This document shows positions 1 to 16,613 of a DNA stretch of 64,000 nt, in pieces; within the stretch, counting starts at the first letter, position 1, and every line of letters starts with the position of its first letter. Location of the stretch: NCBI RefSeq assembly GCF_022809715.1, contig NZ_CP094460.1, forward strand, positions 868,001-932,000, given 5' to 3'. Under the pieces are notes generated by a model. The model did no database searches. It was not told where the DNA came from and saw nothing but the letters and a program-made list of their open reading frames with translations. The DNA comes from Burkholderia pyrrocinia. GTDB lineage: Bacteria; Pseudomonadota; Gammaproteobacteria; Burkholderiales; Burkholderiaceae. The position numbers and the translations under genes were made by a program.

Positions 1-2165
1 GCGAGCAGTTCCGCGTGGCGCGGCTTCATCCCGCCGTTGCCGCACACGTACAGGTTCCAGCCCTTCTCGGTCGCGATGATGCCGACGTCCTTGCCCTGCG
101 CTTCCGCGCACTCGCGCGTGCAGCCCGACACGCCGAACTTGATCTTGTGCGGCGCGCGCAGGCCCTTGTAGCGATTCTCGAGGTCGATCGCGAGGCCGAC
201 CGAATCGTCGACGCCGTAGCGGCACCACGTCGAGCCGACGCACGACTTCACGGTGCGCAGCGCCTTGCCGTACGCATGCCCCGATTCGAAGCCGGCCGCG
301 ATCAGCTCTTCCCAGATCGACGGCAGCTGCTCGACGCGCGCACCGAACAGGTCGACGCGCTGGCCGCCGGTGATCTTCGTATAGAGCCCGTACTTCTGCG
401 CGACCTGGCCGACCGCGATCAGCCCTTCCGGCGTGACCTCGCCGCCCGGCATGCGCGGCACGACCGAGTACGTGCCGTCGCGCTGGATGTTCGCGAGGTA
501 GTAGTCGTTCGAATCCTGCAGCCCCGCATGTTCCTTCTTCAGCACGAACTCGTTGAAGCACGACGCGAGAATGCCCGCGACGGCCGGCTTGCACACGTCG
601 CAGCCGAGCCCGCGGCCGTGCTTCGCGAGCAGTTCGTCGAACGTCGTGATGCCTTCGACGCGGACCAGGTGGAACAGCTCCTGGCGCGAATGCGGGAAGT
701 GCTCGCACAGATGGTTGTTGACCGCGAGGCCCTGCTTCTTCATCTCGGCCTTCATGATCTGCGTGACGAGCGGCACGCAGCCGCCGCACGACGTGCCGGC
801 GCCCGTGCACGACTTCAGCGCGCCGAGGCTGGTCGCGCCGTCGGCGACCGCCGTGCAGATCTGCGACTTCGACACGTTGTTGCACGAGCAGATCTGGGCG
901 CCGTCCGGCAGCGCGTCGACGCCGATCGCCGGCTTCGCCGCGCCGTCCGACGACGGCAGGATCAGGAATTCGGGCGATTCGGGCAGCTCGATGCGGTTCA
1001 GCATCATCTGCAGCAGCGTGCCGTATTCGGCCGCGTCGCCGACCATCACCGCACCGTGCAGAAACTTGCCGCAGTCGGACACCACGAGCTTCTTGTAGAC
1101 CTGCCGGCGCTCGTCCGCGTACTGGTAGGTGCGGCTGCCGGCCGTCGTGCCGTGCGCGTCGCCGATGCTCGCGACGTCGACGCCCATCAGCTTCAGCTTC
1201 GTGCTCATGTCGGCGCCGGCGAACGCGGGTGCGTCGTTCGCGTCGCTGCCCAGCTGCTTCGCGACCACGCGCGCCATGTCGTAGCCGGGGGCAACGAGGC
1301 CGTACACCATGCCGTTCCACGCCGCGCATTCGCCGATCGCGTAGATGTCGGCGTCGCTGGTGCGGCATGCGTCGTCGATCGCGACGCCGCCGCGCGGGCC
1401 GATGTCGAGCCCGCATGCCCGCGCCAGCTCGTCGCGCGCGCGGATGCCGGCCGAAAACACGATCATGTCGGCATCGAGGTGCGTGCCGTCGGCGAACGCC
1501 ATCCGGTGCGTGCCTTCCTCGCCGTCGACGATCTCGAGCGTGTTCCTGCCCGTATGCACGGTCACGCCGAGCGCCTCGATCTTCGCGCGCAGCATCCGGC
1601 CGCCGCCGTCGTCGACCTGCACGGCCATCAGGCGCGGCGCAAATTCGACGACGTGCGTGTCGAGCCCCATGTCGCGCAGCGCCTTCGCGCATTCGAGGCC
1701 GAGCAGCCCGCCGCCGACCACGACGCCGCGCTTCGCGTGTGTGCCGCACGCCTGCATCGCTTCGAGATCCTCGATCGTCCGGTACACGAAGCAGCCCGCG
1801 CGATCATGCCCCGGCATCGGCGGCACGAACGGGCGCGAGCCCGTCGCGAGCACCAGCTTGTCGTACGCGAGCGTTTCGCCCGACGCGAGCGTGACCGTAT
1901 GCGCAGCGCGGTCGATCGATGCGACGCGCGCGTTCAGGCGCAGGTCGAATTGCGGATGACGCTCGAAGAAACCGGGTTCGACGAGCGACAGGTCGTCCGC
2001 CGACTTGCCCGCGAAGAATTCGGACAGGTGCACGCGATCGTAGGCCGGGCGCGGCTCCTCGCCGAGCACGGTGACCTGCAGCGCGCCCGTCGTGCCCGCT
2101 TCCGCCGCGACGCATTCGAGCAGCTTGTGGCCGACCATGCCGTGGCCGATGACGATGAGTTTCAT
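1..2165 (-). CDS. nirB: NAD(P)H nitrite reductase large subunit, 3' end beyond window
   Basis: Cytoplasmic assimilatory nitrite reductase, reducing nitrite to ammonium with NAD(P)H. The protein starts MKLIVIGHGMVGHKLLE (FAD-binding GxGxxG). A second nucleotide-binding motif, VVGGGLLGLECAKAL, lies near residue 150, followed by the bacterioferritin-like [2Fe-2S] region. The sirohaem/[4Fe-4S] ligands are visible near the window start as CVGSTWC and CTREC. About 721 codons are present; the family has roughly 815-860, so the C-terminus lies to the left, where nirD would be expected. It ends 21 bp from the upstream transporter gene on the same strand and is probably co-transcribed from the regulated leader at 3526-3677. 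The ATG at 2165 gives the canonical N-terminus. Confidence 0.95.
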   Translation of the reverse strand, partial: MKLIVIGHGMVGHKLLECVAAEAGTTGALQVTVLGEEPRPAYDRVHLSEFFAGKSADDLSLVEPGFFERHPQFDLRLNARVASIDRAAHTVTLASGETLAYDKLVLATGSRPFVPPMPGHDRAGCFVYRTIEDLEAMQACGTHAKRGVVVGGGLLGLECAKALRDMGLDTHVVEFAPRLMAVQVDDGGGRMLRAKIEALGVTVHTGRNTLEIVDGEEGTHRMAFADGTHLDADMIVFSAGIRARDELARACGLDIGPRGGVAIDDACRTSDADIYAIGECAAWNGMVYGLVAPGYDMARVVAKQLGSDANDAPAFAGADMSTKLKLMGVDVASIGDAHGTTAGSRTYQYADERRQVYKKLVVSDCGKFLHGAVMVGDAAEYGTLLQMMLNRIELPESPEFLILPSSDGAAKPAIGVDALPDGAQICSCNNVSKSQICTAVADGATSLGALKSCTGAGTSCGGCVPLVTQIMKAEMKKQGLAVNNHLCEHFPHSRQELFHLVRVEGITTFDELLAKHGRGLGCDVCKPAVAGILASCFNEFVLKKEHAGLQDSNDYYLANIQRDGTYSVVPRMPGGEVTPEGLIAVGQVAQKYGLYTKITGGQRVDLFGARVEQLPSIWEELIAAGFESGHAYGKALRTVKSCVGSTWCRYGVDDSVGLAIDLENRYKGLRAPHKIKFGVSGCTRECAEAQGKDVGIIATEKGWNLYVCGNGGMKPRHAELL

Positions 2166-2186: not shown

Positions 2187-3512
2187 TCAGTTCGCGACGC
2201 TGCCCGCGGCCAGCGCGCGGTCGCGCAGCTCGGCCTCGCGTGCCTTGTGTTCTTCGCTGAAGCGCACGGCCATCGCGCACAGCGCGGTCGCGGTGACGGC
2301 CAGGCCCAGCAGGCTCAGCGTGTGCTGCACGTCGCCGACGCCCTTCAGCAGGAAGCTCGCGGCGACCGCGCCGACGTTGCCGCCCGCGCCGACGATCCCC
2401 GCGACGCCGCCGAGCGCCTTGCGGTCGATGAACGGCACCAGCGCGTAGGTCGCGCCGCAGGCCATGTGCGTGAACAGGCCGAAGGTCAGCATCGCGAAGA
2501 GCGCGATACCGACGCCTTGCGCATGCGAGAACCAGATCAGCCCGAGCCCTTCGCCGACGATCAGCGCGCACAGCAGCGTCGCGCGCACGTCGAGGCTGCG
2601 GCGCGCGGCGATCTTGTCGGACAGCCAGCCGCCGAGCGCGCGGGCGAACAGCGCGAGCAGCCCGAACATGCCGACCGCGAAACCCGCGTCCTTCAGCGAC
2701 AGGCTGAAGTGATCGACGTAGTACAGCGCGGCGATGTTGTGGATGAACACCTCGACGCCGAAGCACGCACCGTACGTGACGAACAGCATCCACACGCGAT
2801 AGTTGCCGCACGCGGCAGCGAAGCTCGCCCAGCCGCCCTTCTTGCCGCTGTCGATCGTCACGCCTTCCTTGCGCAGCGCGACGAAGTCGCCTTGCGGGCA
2901 ATCCTGCGTGAAGCGCCAGTACGCCCAGGCCATCACGAGCATCGCGACGCCCGGCACGACCAGCGCGATGCGCCACGACGAGCTTTCGCCGAAACCGAGC
3001 ATCAGGCCGGCGGCGACCAGCAGCGGCATCAGCGCCTGCGTCGCACCCGCGCCCGCATTGCCCCAGCCGGCCGTCGTCGCGTTCGCGGTGCCGACCACGT
3101 TCGGCGCGAACATCACCGACGTGTGGTACTGCGTGATCACGAAGCCCGCGCCGATCGCGCCGATGCCGAGCCGGCAGATCAGGAACGTCAGGTAGTCATG
3201 CGCGAACGGCACGGCGAACACGGGAATCGCGCCGAGCAGCAGCAGGCCGGCATAGATGCGGCGCGGGCCGAAGCGGTCGCACAGCGGGCCGACGAGCAGC
3301 CGCACGGCGATCGTCGCGGCCACCGCGGCGATGTTGATGTTGGCGACCTGCGCCGCCGTCAGATGAAATTCGCGTGCGATGAGCGGCATCAGCGGCGCGC
3401 ATGCGAACCACGCGAAGAAGCACACGAAAAACGCCATCCACGTCAGGTGGAACGCGCGCATCGGCGCGGTGCGGAGGCTGAAGAGATCGATACGGGTAGC
3501 TTTGTCGGTCAT
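2187..3512 (-). CDS. nasA: NarK/NasA-family nitrate/nitrite transporter
   Basis: Major facilitator of 441 aa with about 12 membrane segments, for nitrate uptake and/or nitrite export at the inner membrane. Both nitrate-signature regions are visible: a glycine-rich GWGNAGAGATQA in the first half and GIVGAGGNVGAVAAS in the second. The start MTDKATRIDLFSLRTAPMRAF is chosen because the reading frame runs further upstream only through the terminator hairpin of the leader. nirB follows 21 bp downstream. Expression should need sigma-54/NtrC transcription plus NasT read-through of the leader terminator that ends about 15 nt before the ATG. The symbol is assigned by context; narK is an equally used name. 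Confidence 0.93.
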   Translation of the reverse strand: MTDKATRIDLFSLRTAPMRAFHLTWMAFFVCFFAWFACAPLMPLIAREFHLTAAQVANINIAAVAATIAVRLLVGPLCDRFGPRRIYAGLLLLGAIPVFAVPFAHDYLTFLICRLGIGAIGAGFVITQYHTSVMFAPNVVGTANATTAGWGNAGAGATQALMPLLVAAGLMLGFGESSSWRIALVVPGVAMLVMAWAYWRFTQDCPQGDFVALRKEGVTIDSGKKGGWASFAAACGNYRVWMLFVTYGACFGVEVFIHNIAALYYVDHFSLSLKDAGFAVGMFGLLALFARALGGWLSDKIAARRSLDVRATLLCALIVGEGLGLIWFSHAQGVGIALFAMLTFGLFTHMACGATYALVPFIDRKALGGVAGIVGAGGNVGAVAASFLLKGVGDVQHTLSLLGLAVTATALCAMAVRFSEEHKAREAELRDRALAAGSVAN

Positions 3513-3525
3513 GTCATCCGCCAAA

Positions 3526-3650
3526 CGAAAAACGGCGTCCTGCGCACCCGGTCTCGTCGAGACCCGATGCGTAGGACGCCGTTGCCCATGAAGCCCGTTG
3601 CCGGGCGCGTATGTATTCGGTACTGCGGACGAATCGCCATTGACGCGTCC
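3526..3650 (-). promoter_or_regulatory. ANTAR (NasT) leader RNA with intrinsic terminator, upstream of nasA-nirB
   Basis: Read on the minus strand. Hairpin P1 (3650-3627) has arms GGACGCGTC and GATTCGTCC (one wobble, one mismatch) around the six-base loop AATGGC. Hairpin P2 (3587-3574) has arms GGGC and GUCC around the loop AACGGC. Both loops have A at position 1 and G at position 4, the known ANTAR recognition pattern. The bases AACGGCGTCCT, which form the P2 loop and 3' arm, are also the 5' arm of a perfect 11-bp stem with AGGACGCCGTT (3583-3573 with 3541-3531), followed by five U. This is an intrinsic terminator. P2 and the terminator are therefore mutually exclusive, as in ANTAR antitermination. 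An inner GGTCTC/GAGACC stem extends the terminator. Confidence 0.85.
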
Positions 3651-3660
3651 GAACCAGCCT

Positions 3661-3677
3661 ACGCAAACGCCGTGCCA
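3661..3677 (-). promoter_or_regulatory. sigma-54 (-24/-12) promoter for nasA-nirB
   Basis: On the minus strand TGGCACG, four bases, then TTTGC: a full match to the -24 box with GG and GC twelve bases apart. The implied transcription start (about 3651) falls at the first base before ANTAR hairpin P1, which supports both calls. Confidence 0.82.
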
Positions 3678-3778
3678 TGTCGGCCCGAATCGCGCCGGCA
3701 TCCCCGCTGCACAAGGCTCGCCGGCCAGCATGCGCCGCGCTCCGGCACGCGGCGCACGATACGCCGCGATGCAGCGAG

Positions 3779-3793
3779 GCACAGATGTGGTGC
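3779..3793. promoter_or_regulatory. NtrC-type enhancer site 1
   Basis: GCAC, seven bases, GTGC: the core of the NtrC consensus (TGCACC-N5-GGTGCA). It lies between the two divergent sigma-54 promoters and 21 bp centre-to-centre from a second site, two helical turns, as is typical for paired NtrC enhancers. Confidence 0.68.
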
Positions 3794-3799
3794 GCTGCA

Positions 3800-3814
3800 G
3801 CACTGTCGCCGTGC
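3800..3814. promoter_or_regulatory. NtrC-type enhancer site 2
   Basis: A second GCAC-N7-GTGC core, in phase with the first. The pair is about 145 bp from the leftward and 180 bp from the rightward predicted start, normal enhancer distances for both. Confidence 0.68.
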
Positions 3815-3949
3815 GACATTGCGGTGCGCGCTGACGGGGCACGATGCACGCCGACGCGGCATTGCATCTGCCTGCGCGCCGCTGCCGCGCGCACGCGCGC
3901 GGCCGTCACACGGCCGTCGCGCCGCGCTCCCGCCGCGCATCGCGCCGGT

Positions 3950-3965
3950 TGGCCCGGATATTGCT
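3950..3965 (+). promoter_or_regulatory. sigma-54 promoter for cobA(-nasTS)
   Basis: TGGCCCG, GATA, TTGCT: one mismatch in the -24 box, with GG and GC twelve bases apart. The predicted start near 3976 lies a few bases before the first ANTAR-type hairpin of the cobA leader, mirroring the leftward promoter. Confidence 0.75.
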
Positions 3966-3980
3966 GAACTCCATGCATCA

Positions 3981-4098
3981 CACCGGCAACGGCGCCGGTG
4001 GGCAGTTCCCGCAAAACCATGCCCGTCATTCACGGCGGGCCCGTCAGGACAACGGCGTCCCTCCCGTGCGCGGCACGGCCGGATGCCGGACTGTTTCT
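3981..4098 (+). promoter_or_regulatory. second ANTAR (NasT) leader RNA, upstream of cobA
   Basis: P1 (3981-4000) is a perfect 7-bp stem, CACCGGC with GCCGGTG, around the loop AACGGC. P2 (4047-4060) is GGAC with GTCC around the same loop AACGGC. Both loops have A1 and G4, and the linker is 46 nt (39 nt in the leftward leader). The terminator is less clear: GTCC of P2 can instead pair with GGAC at 4088-4091, enclosing small GC hairpins and followed by TGTTTCT. The hairpin pair is well supported; the terminator is an inference. Confidence 0.65.
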
Positions 4099-4166
4099 AC
4101 CGCCCGCCGCCGCCCCGCAGAAAACGCGCTATCGACGGCCGCACGCACGCGGCACAGGAACACGAC

Positions 4167-4928
4167 ATGACGACAGGCAAAGTCACCTTGCTGGGCGCCG
4201 GCCCCGGCGACCTCGATCTCCTCACGCTGAAGGCCGTGAAAGCACTGGCCGCCGCCGACGTGCTGCTGCTCGACGATCTCGTCGCGCCCGGCATCGCCGA
4301 ACTCGCCCCACAGGCGCGCGTGATCCGCGTCGGCAAGCGCGGCGGCTGCCGCTCCACGCCGCAGGCATTCATCGAGCGGCTGATGCGCCGCTACGCGCTG
4401 CGCGGCGCGCACGTGGTGCGCGTGAAGGGCGGCGACGCGCTGCTGTTCGGGCGCGCCGGCGAAGAACTCGCGACGCTGCGCGCCGCCGCGATTCCGGTCG
4501 AGATCGTCAACGGCATCTCGTCGGGATTCGCGGTCGCCGCGAGCCTCGGCATCTCGCTCACGCACCGCGAGCACTGCCAGGGCGTCACCTTCGTCACCGC
4601 GCACCGCCAGGACCACGGCGAACCCGACTGGTCGCGACTCGCGGCGGCCGGCACCACGCTCGCGATCTACATGGGGATGAGCCGCGTCGACAGCATTGCG
4701 GCGGGGCTGCTCGCCGCGCTGCCGGCATCGACGCCGGCCGCGGCCGTGCAATGGGCCGGCACGCCCGACGAGCGCCGCTGGACCGGCACGCTCGGCACTC
4801 TCGCGCGCGGCATCGACGAAGCGCGGCTCGGCAGTCCGGCCGTGATCCTCGTCGGCGGCGCGATCGGCGAGGCGGCCGTGCGGCATGAGGATGCCGCACG
4901 CGACGCGGCGCTGGTCCGGGCCGCGTAG
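4167..4928 (+). CDS. cobA: uroporphyrinogen-III C-methyltransferase
   Basis: SUMT, which makes precorrin-2 from uroporphyrinogen III with S-adenosylmethionine, the committed step to sirohaem. NirB (this window) and assimilatory sulfite reductases need sirohaem. The 253-aa protein has the family motifs in order: LLGAGPGDLDLLTLKA at the N-terminus, VRVKGGDALLFGRAGEE near residue 90, GISSGFAVAASLGISLTHRE near 120 and IYMGMS near 168. The ATG at 4167 is the first codon giving the canonical N-terminus; the frame is open further upstream only by chance. The gene has its own sigma-54 promoter and ANTAR leader, so cofactor supply looks coupled to nitrate reductase production. It is followed by nasT after 165 bp. 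Confidence 0.94.
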   Translation: MTTGKVTLLGAGPGDLDLLTLKAVKALAAADVLLLDDLVAPGIAELAPQARVIRVGKRGGCRSTPQAFIERLMRRYALRGAHVVRVKGGDALLFGRAGEELATLRAAAIPVEIVNGISSGFAVAASLGISLTHREHCQGVTFVTAHRQDHGEPDWSRLAAAGTTLAIYMGMSRVDSIAAGLLAALPASTPAAAVQWAGTPDERRWTGTLGTLARGIDEARLGSPAVILVGGAIGEAAVRHEDAARDAALVRAA

Positions 4929-5093
4929 CATGCGCTGCATCACGCGGCGCCGGCCGCCCGCCTCTTCCGAATCCATTGGCCGCGTTCGCGCCGGCCGCCG
5001 GTCGCGCACGCGCGGTATCGGAACCGCGTCACGACTCGGCCGTCACATGCCGTTCGCGCGCCGCGCCGACCTTCTGCCGCTGCCGCTCGCCTC

Positions 5094-5690
5094 ATGAGTT
5101 CGTCCGCCCTGCCCACCCGCCTGCGCGTGCTGCTCGTCACCGACACCGACAAGCCGATCGGCGAACTCGGCGACGCGCTCGCGCGCCTCGGCTACGAGAT
5201 GCTGAACGACGTCGCGACGCCCGCGCGCCTGCCGGCGGCCGTCGAGGAACAGCGCCCCGACGTCGTGATCATCGATACCGATTCGCCGTCGCGCGACACG
5301 CTCGAGCAGCTCGCGGTGATGAACGCGACCGCGCCGCGCCCCGTGCTGATGTTCAGCCACGACGGCGACCAGGCGCTGATCCGCGCGGCGGTCGGCGCCG
5401 GCGTCAGCGCGTATCTCGTCGAAGGATTGTCGGCCGAGCGCCTCGCGCCGATTCTCGAAGTCGCGCTCGCGCGCTTCTCGCACGACGATGCGCTGCGCCG
5501 CCGGCTCGCCGACGTCGAGCGCGAACTCGCGGAGCGCAAGCTGATCGACCGCGCGAAACGCGTGCTGATGGACCAGCGCAGGCTGTCCGAGCACGATGCG
5601 TATGCAGCGCTGCGCAAGCGCGCGATGGATCAGGGCCTGCGCATCGTCGACATCGCGCGGCAGTTGCTCGATGCGTCACCCCAGCCATGA
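5094..5690 (+). CDS. nasT: ANTAR-domain response regulator/antiterminator NasT
   Basis: 198-aa cytoplasmic RNA-binding antiterminator. Residues 1-130 form a receiver-like domain (LRVLLVTDTDKPIGEL, DVVIIDTDSPSRDTLEQL). The last 55 residues, after the coiled coil DVERELAERKLIDRAK, are the ANTAR module with VLMDQRRLSEHDAYAALRKR. In NasST systems, NasS holds NasT until nitrate or nitrite binds, and freed NasT then binds paired hexaloop hairpins in target leaders. Two such leaders lie 1-1.5 kb away on either side of 3800. The stop overlaps the nasS start (ATGA), so the two are translationally coupled. Confidence 0.92.
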   Translation: MSSSALPTRLRVLLVTDTDKPIGELGDALARLGYEMLNDVATPARLPAAVEEQRPDVVIIDTDSPSRDTLEQLAVMNATAPRPVLMFSHDGDQALIRAAVGAGVSAYLVEGLSAERLAPILEVALARFSHDDALRRRLADVERELAERKLIDRAKRVLMDQRRLSEHDAYAALRKRAMDQGLRIVDIARQLLDASPQP

Positions 5691-6748
5691 CCGCCATGAA
5701 TACTTCGCCTCCCGCCGCGCCGGAACGCGCGCATCTTCGCCTCGGGTTCGTCGCGCTCAGCGACGCGGCCCCGCTGATCGTCGCGCAGCGCCTGAACCTC
5801 GGTGCACCGCACGGCCTGACGCTCGAACTGAACCGCCAGCCGTCGTGGGCCGCCGTGCGCGACAAGCTGCTGAGCGGCGAGCTCGACGCCGCGCACGCGC
5901 TGTACGGGCTCGTCTGCGGGCTGCAGCTCGGCATCGGCGGCCCGCAGGCGGACATGGCCGCGCTGATGGTGCTGAACCGCAACGGCCAGGCCATCTCGTT
6001 CTCGCGTGGCCTCGCCGACGCGTACCGCGAGAGCGGCAGCGTGCGCGACGCACTCGCGACGCTCGGCCGCAAGCCGCTGCTCGCGCAGACCTTCCCGACC
6101 GGCACGCACGCGATGTGGCTGAACCACTGGCTCGCATCGCACGGCGTCGATCCGCTGCGCGACGTGCGCAGCGTCGTGATCCCGCCGCCCGAGATGGTCG
6201 CCGCGCTCGCGGGCGGCGAGCTCGACGGCTTCTGCGCGGGCGAGCCGTGGCATGCGGTCGCCGAAGCGTGCCAGGCCGGCCGCACCGTCGCCGTCACGAG
6301 CGAGATCTGGCCCGAACATCCGGAGAAGGTGCTCGCGGCCCGCCGCGACTTCGTCTCGCTGTATCCGGCCACCGCACGCGCGCTGATCCGCACGCTCGTC
6401 GATGCCTGCGCGTGGCTCGACAGCGCCGCGCACCGCCGCGAGGCGGCCGACTGGCTCGCGTCGCCCGACGCGATCGGCGTGCCGGCGCGGCTGATCGCGC
6501 CGCGCCTGCTCGGCGACTACGGCGCGGGGCCGTTCGCGGAGCCGCCGCTACCGATCCGCTTCCACGACGGCGGCGCCGTGAACCGGCCCGATCCGCTCGA
6601 CGGCCGGTGGTTCCTGGCCCAATACCGGCGCTGGGGCATGCTCGACGGTTCGCACGACGACGCGGGGATCGCCGCGGCGATCGCGCAGACCGCGTTGTAT
6701 GATGCTGCGGTCGCCGAACGCGGCGCAGCGGGCCCGTCGCAAGCGTGA
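5687..6748 (+). CDS. nasS: nitrate/nitrite-sensing protein NasS
   Basis: 353 aa related to the substrate-binding proteins of nitrate ABC transporters (NrtA/NasF) but without a signal peptide: it begins MTAMNTSPPAAPERAHLRLGF, so it should act in the cytoplasm. Motifs seen include LRLGFVALSDAAPLIVAQ, DAAHALYGLVCGLQLGIGG, TFPTGTHAMWLNHWL and ELDGFCAGEPWHAVA. It is the ligand-sensing inhibitor of NasT. The ATG overlaps the nasT stop by four bases; an in-frame ATG at 5696 is an alternative. No transporter permease genes are nearby, which fits a sensor rather than a transport role. Confidence 0.91.
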   Translation: MTAMNTSPPAAPERAHLRLGFVALSDAAPLIVAQRLNLGAPHGLTLELNRQPSWAAVRDKLLSGELDAAHALYGLVCGLQLGIGGPQADMAALMVLNRNGQAISFSRGLADAYRESGSVRDALATLGRKPLLAQTFPTGTHAMWLNHWLASHGVDPLRDVRSVVIPPPEMVAALAGGELDGFCAGEPWHAVAEACQAGRTVAVTSEIWPEHPEKVLAARRDFVSLYPATARALIRTLVDACAWLDSAAHRREAADWLASPDAIGVPARLIAPRLLGDYGAGPFAEPPLPIRFHDGGAVNRPDPLDGRWFLAQYRRWGMLDGSHDDAGIAAAIAQTALYDAAVAERGAAGPSQA

Positions 6749-13029: not shown

Positions 13030-14796
13030 TCATTGTTTGCCTAAAAAGCCGGCCCCAACAAACCGACTTGGACGGTTCCTGTAATCGCGCATGTCTGGGG
13101 CGTACATCAGGTATTTTTGAGCTCGAGTCAGCCCTACATAGAACAGTCGCTGAGCTTCAGCAAACTCCTCTTCGGTCCTGAGTTGATAGAAGGGAATGCT
13201 CCCTTCGTTCAGATCAACCATCGCAACTGCACTGAACTCTCGGCCTTTTGCGGCGTGGAACGTCAAGAGCTTTACTGCGCGCTTTGGTCGCGCGAGAATT
13301 CCCATTTCCTCAATAGAGAGAGATTCTGGATCAATATTGTTTTTGCGGACATCGCGTTCCATTTCCTCCACCGACTCGCGAAGCGCCTCGACCTCGTGTG
13401 TGCAGATGTAACCTTCGGCCACAAGGTGTGCTGATACGCGTGCAGCAAGTAAATACAAGAACTCCATTCCACCAGTAGAACGATCTCGAGCATTGGCGGC
13501 ATCAGACAAAATTTGGTAGATTAGCCTTCGGCCGTCATATGTGAAGAGTCGGTGAGGTGCCCGATTTGCGACCTCTAATATCATGTCGTAGAGGGACCGT
13601 TCGACGCCCACCAGTGCTTCAAAATCTGGCTCGCACAGGTGGCCGCAGATTCTCTCTGCGACCGTTGCGAATAACCTCTGTCGCCTGTAGGGTCGAGCGC
13701 CCGGTCCGAGAACAGGTATGCCCCGGATTCGAAGCTCTTTCGCGATTGGCATCAACTTGAACCAGGAGTTGGCCAGAACCACCGACTCACCAGGTGGGAT
13801 ACCCAATTCCGCAATTCGCGGTAAGAAAAAATCGGTCACGGCATGGGTTGGGTTACTAGCGATTACTAAATCCGTCTGGAGAGCAAGTCCTTTATGTCGG
13901 CCCTCCGCCGTCATCGCTGGGACCCTGGGGAAAATCGCATTGGCATCGTCAATGATTGCGGGAGCAGACCGGAAGTTTCCCGACAGTGCGAAGTCGCGAA
14001 GCGCGCCGATGCGCTCAGCAAAGCTTTCCGCCAGATCCGGTGCGGCGCCCGCAAAACCAAAAATGGACTGGTAAAGGTCTCCCACCAAAAAGAACTTGGT
14101 GTTCCCTCGCCTGTGAACCTCTTCGAAGATGGCAACCTGGAGGTCCGTTGTGTCTTGAAACTCGTCCACCAGGATCCAGGCAAAGCGGGCCGAAAGGTGG
14201 TTACAGATTTCCGGATAAGTTAGGCAGAGAGTCAGAGAGTGATACAACAGACTCGCGAAGTCGACCTGTCGACGCTCATACATTAACCGCCAAAAATGGC
14301 TAGCTTCTGCGGGGCTGATGGTCCCAGACACGATGGGAGGACCGACAGTAAATTTTTCAGCGGTGATTCGGAGTTGGCCGAATTCATCCGTATCGCGCCC
14401 AGTAGCACGTTTACCAAACGCGGATCGCGTCTCCTGGACAAGACTTTCGAACTCTTCGCTATCTTGCCCGATGACCTTGAATCCGTGCTGAAAGTGAGGG
14501 AGTCGGTGTGAGTATGGTCGAAAAATGTTGTTAAGGCAGAACGCGTGGATAGTAGAAATGTCCAGAGCCCATTCGTCGCGGACGCCCAACGATCTTCTCA
14601 CACGCGATTCAATCTCGTGAACTGCCGCATTTGTGTACGTGATGCAGGCAACGCTCCGTGGAGTGGACTCCACTTCCTCGAGACAGCGCCCCAGCTTGGC
14701 GGTAATTACACTCGTCTTTCCGGAACCCGGACACGCGGTGAGGAACACCGAGCTATCGCACTCGACAGCGTCACGCTGTTCGTTCGTGAGTCTCAT
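13030..14796 (-). CDS. gajB: Gabija protein GajB (UvrD-like helicase)
   Basis: 588-aa superfamily 1 helicase, one half of the Gabija anti-phage complex with GajA. Motifs are LTACPGSGKTSVITAKL (Walker A, near residue 20), ITYTNAAVHEIESR (Ia), AWILVDEFQDTTDLQ (motif II), FLVGDLYQSIFGFAGA (III), NFRSAPAIIDDANAIF (IV), LLTFHAAKGREFSAVAMVD (V) and RLFYVGLTRAQKYL (VI). All are intact. The start MRLTNEQRDAVE overlaps the gajA stop (ATGA), so ATG 14796 is preferred over 14811. It is longer than the ~500-aa type member. Lower GC than the flanks suggests horizontal acquisition. Confidence 0.88.
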   Translation of the reverse strand: MRLTNEQRDAVECDSSVFLTACPGSGKTSVITAKLGRCLEEVESTPRSVACITYTNAAVHEIESRVRRSLGVRDEWALDISTIHAFCLNNIFRPYSHRLPHFQHGFKVIGQDSEEFESLVQETRSAFGKRATGRDTDEFGQLRITAEKFTVGPPIVSGTISPAEASHFWRLMYERRQVDFASLLYHSLTLCLTYPEICNHLSARFAWILVDEFQDTTDLQVAIFEEVHRRGNTKFFLVGDLYQSIFGFAGAAPDLAESFAERIGALRDFALSGNFRSAPAIIDDANAIFPRVPAMTAEGRHKGLALQTDLVIASNPTHAVTDFFLPRIAELGIPPGESVVLANSWFKLMPIAKELRIRGIPVLGPGARPYRRQRLFATVAERICGHLCEPDFEALVGVERSLYDMILEVANRAPHRLFTYDGRRLIYQILSDAANARDRSTGGMEFLYLLAARVSAHLVAEGYICTHEVEALRESVEEMERDVRKNNIDPESLSIEEMGILARPKRAVKLLTFHAAKGREFSAVAMVDLNEGSIPFYQLRTEEEFAEAQRLFYVGLTRAQKYLMYAPDMRDYRNRPSRFVGAGFLGKQ

Positions 14797-16613
14797 GGTT
14801 GAGACAACCATTCAACAGCTTCCCGGATATACGGGGGAATGGATGTTGCTGTCGCGATGTTTCGCGCTGCAACTTGCGCGAAGCGAGCCTTCCCATACCG
14901 CTTCGCCGTGCTGAGGACCTTGCCCCTGCATCTTTCGGCAAGCTCTTTCGCACCGTCACTTCCAGGTTCGAGCGTTTTCCATTCCTCGCGCCAGCGTCGC
15001 AGTTGTGCCGCCACCGCGACTGCACCGAGCGATGAAGCCGTCCGTGCGAACATCTCGATATTTCCATACATCGTAACGGCACGCTCAAACGTTGTGGCAT
15101 TCGCGAACACCTTTACGTACTTGCTTTCGAGTCTAGAGAGGTCCGGCGCGTTAAACGGCGCCTCCTCTTCACTGAGCCCCGACTCGGCGGCGTCTGAAGG
15201 CGTTAGGTCACCATCGGCGATGATTGCACATTTCTTCGGTAGCCCATACTTTGAGAAGAGCTTTGCGTAGACGTCGAAGTGAACCCCGTAGATGGGAATT
15301 ACGGTAATGCCTTCACGGTCTAGGTCGCGCCCCAGTACCTGGTTCACTAGGGCGGGAATCAAGAGCAGTTCAGCGGGCCCCTCGACCAAGATCACCTTTC
15401 TTGCGAAAAGCAGGCCCGATTTGGTTGCATCCAAATAGCGTTCTAAGTCAGCAACATCATCGTCGGAGAGGTTGTCGCAGGCAGACGGTACCGAAGAGTG
15501 TGAGCATCCAGTGCCAACATTCGTTAACGCGACGAATTTGTTTAACCCAGCCTGTGCCGTGATGTGAGTGCTGTGTGTGGTCAGAATAGTCTGGAATGGC
15601 AGCCCTTCCAGCGCGGCGTAGAGGGAGAGTTGCAATTGAGGGTGCAGATGGGCTTCCGGTTCTTCGAACAGTATGAGTTGCCCTGCTGAGTTTTCTTGCT
15701 GGAGTCGTCGCTTAAAGTACTCGATGAGGATGGCGATGTAGAGAACATTGTTAACGCCAAGGCCATTCGAGCTTGGATCTGCATCAGTGACTGCGTCATT
15801 GGAGAGCAGAAGCCGGAGCGCCCGCACCACTGACTGAAATGTAGGCTCTGCCAAGCCGACATCAATGGTCATTTCGAACGCAGGGCCGGCGACCTCATTG
15901 AACGACTTATCAACGGCGCGGGCGAGCTTCGTGATAGTGTCCGACGACGATATTGTACCGTTCGCCTTTTCCAGTGCAGTGACAAGCTTCTGCTTCTCTG
16001 CATCCGTGATAGCAGACGCCTCAATGAGTTTCACGAAGGGCGACGACCGAGGTTGCCGGAGATCGCTCTCCACATCACGGAGTGCCGGGAGAAATACAAC
16101 CTGGAAGGCCTGGAGGTCAGAGAACCGGATCCCGAACCCAACATCTTCGTCCCAATCAATTTTTGCGAGGTTTATCTCGGCGTCACCTCCCCCTTGCAGT
16201 TCCCACTGATAGTCAGAAAGTACAAGCTTTCCGAGGGTTGGGTCCGCGGCCGCCAGTCGTTCGCGGATGCTCGGCCGAGGCCGAAAACGATAAATCAGAC
16301 GAGCTCGGTTCGATTCAACACTCCACGCTCCAGCGAGAGCTTCCTCGTTAACCTTCCCCGCATAGTCAGTTATTTCGAGGCCAATTAATACCTCGGCAGG
16401 CTTGCCAATATCAATGGCGGTTGATATATCGCGCATCGACAAACTACGATACGTCGATGGGAGATTTGCGTCTATGCAAAGCCGAATCGCATGGAGAAAT
16501 GCAGACTTGCCGGTGTTGTTCTCCCCGATGACGCAACTGATATTGTTGTCCAAGGATATATCGAGGTGCTGGAAGGCTCGAAAGTTGCGAATTACGACAC
16601 GGCTGATTCTCAC
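14793..16613 (-). CDS. gajA: Gabija protein GajA (OLD-family ATPase/TOPRIM nuclease)
   Basis: 606-aa class-2 OLD nuclease. The ABC-type ATPase N-terminal part starts MRISRVVIRNFRAFQHLDISL with Walker A GENNTGKSAF (residues about 32-41), Walker B QLILFEEPEAHLHPQLQ and H-loop ILTTHSTHI. The C-terminal TOPRIM has VILVEGPAELLLIPALV (catalytic Glu) and CAIIADGDLTPSD (DxD). In Gabija the GajA tetramer cuts phage DNA and is gated by nucleotide; GajB joins it. Both catalytic centres look complete. It is first in a two-gene leftward operon. The 224 bp upstream to the recombinase gene hold its promoter. Confidence 0.9.
   Translation of the reverse strand: MRISRVVIRNFRAFQHLDISLDNNISCVIGENNTGKSAFLHAIRLCIDANLPSTYRSLSMRDISTAIDIGKPAEVLIGLEITDYAGKVNEEALAGAWSVESNRARLIYRFRPRPSIRERLAAADPTLGKLVLSDYQWELQGGGDAEINLAKIDWDEDVGFGIRFSDLQAFQVVFLPALRDVESDLRQPRSSPFVKLIEASAITDAEKQKLVTALEKANGTISSSDTITKLARAVDKSFNEVAGPAFEMTIDVGLAEPTFQSVVRALRLLLSNDAVTDADPSSNGLGVNNVLYIAILIEYFKRRLQQENSAGQLILFEEPEAHLHPQLQLSLYAALEGLPFQTILTTHSTHITAQAGLNKFVALTNVGTGCSHSSVPSACDNLSDDDVADLERYLDATKSGLLFARKVILVEGPAELLLIPALVNQVLGRDLDREGITVIPIYGVHFDVYAKLFSKYGLPKKCAIIADGDLTPSDAAESGLSEEEAPFNAPDLSRLESKYVKVFANATTFERAVTMYGNIEMFARTASSLGAVAVAAQLRRWREEWKTLEPGSDGAKELAERCRGKVLSTAKRYGKARFAQVAARNIATATSIPPYIREAVEWLSQP

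Follow-up and report, generated by a model that had tools for sequence, protein, structure and literature searches.

Mirrored sigma-54 promoters and two predicted ANTAR leaders between nasA-nirB and cobA-nasT-nasS in a Burkholderia genome

The window, which is the whole 64-kb stretch of DNA that was analyzed, is part of the second contig (3.0 Mb) of a three-contig, 7.69-Mb genome. Its minus strand carries nasA (2187..3512), which encodes an MFS nitrate/nitrite transporter whose best NCBIfam match, to the NarK family, was under the cut-off of that family, and nirB (3..2165), which encodes the large subunit of nitrite reductase and extends beyond the window edge. The plus strand carries cobA (4167..4928), encoding the uroporphyrinogen-III C-methyltransferase, which produces the precursor of the NirB cofactor sirohaem. 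It is followed by nasT (5094..5690), encoding a receiver domain and an ANTAR domain (PF03861, 3.1e-17), and nasS (5687..6748), encoding an NMT1_2-type nitrate/nitrite sensor (PF13379, 1.8e-82). These domain matches bear out an earlier sequence-only reading, which had placed nasT and nasS downstream, and the two genes form a NasS-NasT pair, with an ANTAR-domain NasT beside an NMT1-type NasS. The order nasT then nasS was found in the window and in all 31 other divergent loci of the first set. The nearest named relative of NasT, among the best 80 of 107, was that of Burkholderia cepacia LK29 (97%). The NasT matches in genomes G091, G071, G122, G044, and G106 each carried one in-frame stop (TGA or TAG).

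The gap between nasA-nirB and cobA-nasT-nasS is the control region. Sigma-54 sites were sought by a scan of 12 fixed positions, with GG and GC obligatory. Only two sites with at most one mismatch were found on both strands of the window, and they are the two outward-facing sigma-54 promoters that had been proposed: TGGCACGGCGTTTGCG (3662..3677, minus strand) upstream of nasA, with a predicted start at about 3651, and TGGCCCGGATATTGCT (3950..3965, plus strand) upstream of cobA-nasT-nasS, with a predicted start at about 3976. When 4000 Markov-generated sequences of 654 bp were scanned, 1.1% had at least one site with at most one mismatch and none had one per strand. At a threshold of three mismatches, sigma-54 sites were present on both sides in all 32 divergent intergenic regions, that of the window included. 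No sigma-70-like site was found in a scan of 3400-5200.

Between the two promoters, a motif scan showed two NtrC-type sites of the form GCAC-N7-GTGC, at 3779..3793 and 3800..3814 (no strand assigned), in a conserved register 21 bp apart. This was the single such pair in the window and occurred in none of 100 shuffles, in agreement with the claim that the two promoters have a pair of sites in common; -24/-12 promoters with NtrC-type sites upstream are the arrangement of an NtrC/sigma-54 regulon. A chance origin of the sigma-54 and NtrC-type sites was ruled out by the shuffles and the Markov controls. Against an E. coli-type NtrC consensus, in a scan with locus L057 left out, both sites had 3-4 mismatches and other sites scored similarly. 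As judged by motif, the conserved putative NtrC-type feature is the GCAC-N7-GTGC core pair, rather than the full E. coli-type consensus.

Each predicted RNA starts with two hairpins. On the nasA side (minus strand), hairpin 1 (3626..3651) has the hexaloop AATGGC (3641-3636), has one internal stem mismatch, and is within the predicted minimum free energy (MFE) structure; hairpin 2, the putative antiterminator P2 (3574..3587), reads GGGC-AACGGC-GTCC, with its loop at 3583-3578. On the cobA side (plus strand), hairpin 1 (3981..4000) reads CACCGGC-AACGGC-GCCGGTG, with its loop at 3988-3993, and hairpin 2, the putative P2 (4047..4060), reads GGAC-AACGGC-GTCC, with its loop at 4051-4056. Thus, both loops of both leaders have A at position 1 and G at position 4, as the sequence-only reading had it, with a mismatch in nasA hairpin 1. 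Because of this mismatch, the AATGGC hairpin fails a strict rule of an uninterrupted 4-bp stem. The cobA leader of the window therefore passes a test for two strict hairpins, to which 110 random nt rise in 0.5% of cases, and the nasA leader fails it. When the window and the 31 divergent loci were counted, two or more strict hairpins were present in 28 of the 32 cobA leaders and in 29 of the 32 nasA leaders, the L057 nasA leader beginning at a wrong site in this count. The dual-hairpin RNA targets of EutV, AmiR, and NasR have two hairpins with A1/G4 hexaloops, at least three pairs in each, and a variable linker (Ramesh et al., 2012; excerpted text of PMC3369931). Both leaders likewise have at least three pairs per hairpin and a variable linker, with the internal mismatch in nasA hairpin 1.

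A terminator lies over hairpin 2 in both leaders, a feature that the sequence-only reading had passed over, as it had the inequality of the two terminators and the feedback suggested by nasT-nasS lying downstream of a NasT-type leader. The nasA terminator occupies 3528..3583 on the minus strand (stem 3583-3531, T-run 3532-3528), and the cobA terminator 4054..4096 on the plus strand (stem 4054-4087), where the tail GGACTGTTT is interrupted. On both sides, the loop and the 3' strand of hairpin 2 double as the 5' arm of the terminator, so hairpin 2 and the terminator are mutually exclusive. P2 therefore overlaps the terminator stem on both sides, with a strong T-run in nasA and an interrupted one in cobA. 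Such overlap with an intrinsic terminator is given for about 30% of the ANTAR matches from genomes with an ANTAR gene, and the matches are said to include Burkholderia (excerpted text of PMC3369931). The window resembles the EutV, AmiR, and NasR targets, as that text describes them, in its A1/G4 hexaloop hairpins and overlapping P2, and is unlike them in that one enhancer serves a divergent pair of such leaders, whose terminators are unequal. The predicted folds of the free leaders contained hairpin 1 and the terminator on both sides, and when the folds ended just past hairpin 2, the MFE structure was without hairpin 2. The predicted cost of forcing hairpin 2, computed for the window leaders only, was 5.2 kcal/mol for cobA versus 17.8 kcal/mol for nasA.

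The Infernal search from which the sequence-only reading had expected support returned no Rfam family at its gathering score anywhere in the window. The cobA leader gave the sub-threshold match with the most bits, to RF03032 narK (25.1 bits, E 0.021, gathering score 43.2), and the nasA leader was absent from the sub-threshold narK matches listed. RF00625 P11 scored 16.8 bits on the cobA side and 16.4 on the nasA side (gathering score 70). A mir-191 match over the palindrome of the nasA terminator (24.4 bits, E 0.0098, a lower E than that of narK) was taken as chance, as were sub-threshold mir-2766, b55, mir-2820, and mir-981 matches. The two RNA families were examined at their own loci (L247-L276). 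Two A1/G4 hairpins together with a sigma-54 site were found in 13 of 15 checked narK matches and in 12 of 15 checked P11 matches; 15 of the 17 listed P11 matches were checked, L277 and L278, on the opposite strand, being left out. No elements were recovered from L135, L251, and L259, which are short and at contig ends, and the offset was perhaps wrong there. These matches make both models seem to be a sigma-54 promoter followed by an ANTAR leader, so that RF03032 and RF00625 look like NasT-type ANTAR leaders including promoter DNA, and the analysis suggests a function for narK and P11. The window's leaders are like the two families in having a sigma-54 site and A1/G4 hexaloop hairpins, as the models and most checked matches do, and unlike their members in lying under both gathering scores.

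Two covariance models were built, R1 from both leader types and R2 from nasA leaders alone. In the whole genome, R1 found the two leaders of the window (E 1.2e-18 and 1.2e-15), followed by the nasA terminator read in antisense (E 0.005) and by one weak match (E 0.95). Since R1 was trained on both leaders, this search shows their uniqueness and is not proof of their nature. R2 gave the cobA leader of the window 21.1 bits (E 0.002), which was below the 31.1 bits that this search gave for the antisense strand of the nasA terminator. With strict filters, R1 matched in 132 genomes out of 200 from the family (E <= 0.01) and in 57 out of 300 from the order (E <= 0.001). From the wider sample, 28 loci (L116-L143, three of them from the same family) were checked; two hexaloop hairpins were found in 25 and a sigma-54 site in 24. 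The next long ORF matched NasA, NasS, or NirB (24-78% identity) in 27 of them, L135 being the remaining one. It was cobA in none of these loci, and the divergent partner of L123 was cobA (L149).

The uniqueness of the two leaders bears on which protein might read them. The third contig carries a gene for a second ANTAR protein, of the NIT-ANTAR (NasR-like) type, beside a formate/nitrite transporter (L103, 7848-9203), with a NIT domain (8.4e-50) and an ANTAR domain (4.6e-17) in one protein. In Klebsiella, NasR controls the nas operon through its leader (excerpted text of PMC3369931), so the leaders of the window might be read by this protein or shared with it. However, nasT and nasS are inside the cobA unit and the NIT-ANTAR gene lies on a separate contig, and no RNA target of the latter was found with R1 in the whole genome, where the next match was not convincing (E 0.95), although leaders of another type may escape R1. 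We give this reading little credence, and take NasT as the protein that would read both leaders.

Pairing was examined in a register-fixed set of leaders (A4), from which the cobA leaders of L038, L041, L054, L055, and L071 and the nasA leader of L057 were omitted; an alignment (A3) with hairpin 1 off-register between the two leader sets was not used. In the antiterminator structure of the cobA leaders (n=27), 98.3% of cells paired and both sides had changed in 5 of 11 pairs. In cobA hairpin 1 both sides had changed in 5 of 7 pairs, a count reached in none of 500 shuffles (n=27), and hairpin 2 never varies and so yields no covariation either way. With the terminator included (n=27), pairing was 95.6% and 8 of 20 pairs had both-side changes. 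Among the nasA leaders (n=31, 30 distinct), pairing was 93.7%, with both-side changes in 11 of 27 pairs and a count of further pair types that was matched or exceeded in 7 of 500 shuffles. Kinship among the sequences inflates the shuffle test for both leader sets, but when the structures were shifted by 1-3 columns, just 25-61% of cells paired.

The named loci were the best 80 of 107 NasT relatives from a scan of public genomes. The divergent nasA and cobA-nasT layout was found in 48 of these 80, with record titles of Burkholderia or Caballeronia; the 20 loci counted as Caballeronia-type include L221 (titled Burkholderia turbans) and L228 (B. peredens). All 48 had the NtrC-type pair in the exact 21-bp register. 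R1 matched all 48 on the nasA side and 47 of them on the cobA side, counts that are not independent because several of the genomes are, or are near, R1 training genomes. In the cobA leaders of the window and of 47 named loci (n=48), loop positions 1, 2, and 4 were A, A, and G in both hairpins, the search pattern for hairpin 2 itself requiring AA, and positions 3, 5, and 6 were variable. In the first set, L041 had the hairpin 1 loop AGCGGC. Among 28 Burkholderia cobA leaders, the window included, mean identity was 91-98% in the promoter, hairpins, and terminator arms (98% in the sigma-54 promoter) and 63-81% in the linker, tail, and flanks. In L193 (Burkholderia sp. Bp8963; 2900-3092), the sole case in 48, the sigma-54 site of cobA was kept and the whole ANTAR leader was lost, so that this locus is a natural leader deletion. 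In L244 (Caballeronia catudaia), the cobA leader and nasT were kept and nasA was not found alongside; the upstream sequence, by eye, resembles a different coding gene.

Less dependent evidence than the 48 named loci came from g20, a genus of the same family that is probably Paraburkholderia. Eight g20 regions (L147-L154) were fetched, of which five (L148, L149, L151, L152, and L153) have nirB divergent from cobA; no divergent cobA was present in the other three. Because the regions were fetched for their R1 matches, they test the cobA arm and not the choice of locus. Their cobA leaders, which are outside the training set, were matched in 5 of 5 cases both by R1 (38.9-61.3 bits) and by R2 (20.2-36.8 bits, E 1.9e-7 to 3.5e-3). 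Hairpin 2 was plain in all five, hairpin 1 was found by the strict rule in three (not in L151, and doubtful only in L152), and the paired NtrC-type site was found in four and not seen in L151. In these loci no nasT adjoins cobA, and nasT is on other contigs.

Published expression data from B. cenocepacia H111, a close relative, bear on the promoters. RNA-seq of an ntrC mutant after a shift to 0.3 mM NH4Cl showed log2 changes of -11.4 for the cobA orthologue, -8.1 for nasT, -4.2 for nasS, -6.6 for nasA, and -6.5 for nirB, and -11.1 for the small ORF I35_5549, whose number falls between those of the nasA and cobA orthologues; the mutant was unable to use nitrate (excerpted text of PMC5491218). 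We assigned the orthologues by gene order and annotation. As excerpted, these data support NtrC control of both arms, and they concern NtrC, not nitrate. They also fit a message joining cobA to nasT. A scan found no terminator-like site in the cobA-nasT gap of the window, and a sigma-54-like site (at most two mismatches) within 400 bp of nasT was present in 1 of the 48 divergent named loci.

The whole is, in our judgment, very probably explained by a two-key, two-arm switch. When nitrogen is limiting, NtrC would bind the common pair of sites and fire the two outward sigma-54 promoters. Each RNA would start with a two-hairpin ANTAR target, in which the terminator would replace hairpin 2 when no protein is bound. 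Nitrate or nitrite would free NasT from NasS, NasT would hold the two-hairpin form, and transcription would proceed into nasA-nirB and, in the opposite direction, into cobA-nasT-nasS. With both arms under one switch, nitrite reductase would rise together with the methylase that serves its sirohaem cofactor. No separate promoter was evident for nasT-nasS behind cobA, so NasT should increase its own supply; with its gene behind the cobA leader, it probably controls its own synthesis. We infer NasT binding and antitermination at both leaders, the two starts, a joint cobA-nasT-nasS transcript, and the feedback. A serial action of nitrogen limitation and nitrate on each arm had been suggested from sequence and is supported here, for the NtrC part by the H111 RNA-seq (excerpted text of PMC5491218).

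The two terminators of the window end differently, and this difference was followed across loci. After the nasA stem, TTTT was present in 28 of 28 Burkholderia loci, the window included; the nasA tail set also took in 5 of 20 Caballeronia-type tails. After the cobA stem, TTTT was present in none of 25 located Burkholderia tails; the other three of 28 (L172, L176, and L195) were not located by pattern and their printed ends are without TTTT. The cobA terminator of Burkholderia may therefore terminate poorly. TTTT followed the cobA stem in 8 of 20 Caballeronia-type leaders, whose units contain nasT, and in 5 of 5 g20 leaders, whose units do not. The tails thus appear to track gene content in part, namely whether nasT is in the cobA unit. 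Together, the tails and the lower predicted refolding cost suggest a leaky attenuator where the transcript also encodes the sensor pair.

If the cobA leader had instead decayed as a terminator in Burkholderia, cobA-nasT-nasS would answer to NtrC alone and nitrate control would be left to the nasA arm. The contrast in TTTT between the cobA and nasA tails is what such decay would leave; the loss of the entire leader in L193 agrees with it, as does the strong NtrC dependence of cobA and nasT in H111 at 0.3 mM NH4Cl, where nitrate is not mentioned (excerpted text of PMC5491218). However, a dead attenuator should drift, and in the 28 Burkholderia leaders the hairpins and terminator arms were better conserved than the linker and flanks. 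The difference in identity appears to argue against simple decay, as do compensatory changes across genera. A simple scan for five T in eight positions also flagged the cobA terminator of the window (tail GACTGTTTCT) and did not list the nasA terminator. We consider decay unlikely.

If the cobA leader worked without intrinsic termination, by way of Rho or translation or by titrating NasT as an abundant short RNA, this would likewise account for the interrupted cobA tail. An abundant leader RNA is also what the drop of 11.1 log2 in I35_5549 would be expected to reflect, this ORF being placed by its number (excerpted text of PMC5491218). However, TTTT is intact in all five g20 cobA leaders. In the window, the terminator stem is 79 nt away from the start codon of cobA and thus does not mask its ribosome site. 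We regard this mode of action as improbable, and retain intrinsic termination relieved by NasT at both leaders.

Within the two-key switch, we hypothesize a tight switch for the enzymes and a leaky switch for the regulator. In its full form, which we put forward tentatively and would sooner doubt than assert, one enhancer would serve two attenuators of different tightness: a tight one, with a long stem and a T-run, before the transport and reductase genes, and a leaky one, with a low switching cost and an interrupted tail, before cobA and the sensor pair. The leak would supply the first NasT and NasS molecules, and NasT would antiterminate its own message. The result would be a positive-feedback nitrate switch that is primed by nitrogen hunger alone, makes the cofactor before the enzyme, and could be bistable. 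Against different tightness stand the flagging of the window's cobA terminator by the simple scan and the refolding cost, which comes from the window only. The natural series of Burkholderia, Caballeronia, g20, and the leaderless L193 makes the role of the terminator leak directly testable.

The genome has two more close copies of the methylase, and a third, weaker match (33%). The two close copies are uroporphyrinogen methylase-type genes on the first contig (L102 and L100). One (44%) is in a sulphate-assimilation cluster with sulphite reductase, PAPS-reductase-type, GTPase, and DUF934 proteins, and the other (51%) is beside CobN and a NicO-type nickel transporter. Because the other close copies sit elsewhere, the copy before nasT is best understood as a dedicated nitrite-reduction copy, and this is what we infer for the window. 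The genome seems to hold pathway-specific methylase copies. In other loci of the family, such as L068 with L161, where a leader is found before nirB, the genes cobA, nirB, nasT, and nasS share a strand. In the loci examined in detail, nitrate-type cobA therefore either follows a nirB that has a leader at its head or has its own leader.

The sequence-only reading knew of no description of ANTAR control of cobA. Romeo et al. reportedly described in 2012 the NalA leader of the nirBD-PA1779-cobA operon of P. aeruginosa. Since the NalA-led operon contains cobA, control of this gene by an ANTAR protein has a precedent, and the suggestion that it is undescribed fails (Romeo et al.; excerpted text of PMC12830290). 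According to that text, a 2026 review, the NalA leader is sigma-54/NtrC-driven and NasT-antiterminated, so the link of sigma-54/NtrC, NasT, and an operon with cobA is already known. The present locus resembles NalA, as excerpted there, in its sigma-54/NtrC start, leader hairpin, NasT antitermination (here predicted), and cobA in the operon. Unlike NalA, with one leader and one operon with cobA inside, it has cobA behind its own divergent leader, an enhancer common with nasA, and nasT-nasS behind cobA.

In Paracoccus denitrificans, nasTS and nasABGHC are controlled by NtrC first and NasST second (excerpted texts of PMC3795266 and PMC5424462); NasT binds the nasA leader, which has two hairpins, HI and HII, and the NasS-NasT complex dissociates on nitrate or nitrite (excerpted text of PMC3795266). 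The window is similar in the proposed order NtrC then NasST and in its two-hairpin nasA leader, where NasT binding is predicted from sequence. Unlike the window's pair, nasTS of Paracoccus has its own NtrC-type promoter and, in the excerpted texts, is not described as behind a NasT-type leader. A term count found no mention of cobA in PMC5424462. Neither a description of a cobA gene with an ANTAR leader of its own nor any Burkholderia experiment with NasT was found in the open-licence literature, which misses most subscription journals. As far as that literature shows, the separate cobA leader (present also in g20, with nirB as partner), the enhancer common to two ANTAR leaders, the position of nasT-nasS behind the leakier leader, and the unequal terminators are new. 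If true, the arrangement would show how a cell adjusts the supply of a costly cofactor to the enzyme that uses it, and in what way a regulator acting by antitermination can be wired to its own leader.

Elsewhere in the window, at 13030-16613, a Gabija-type anti-phage pair was found on the minus strand, with gajA at 14793-16613 (top PADLOC score 1058.8 bits) and gajB at 13030-14811 (top PADLOC score 919 bits).
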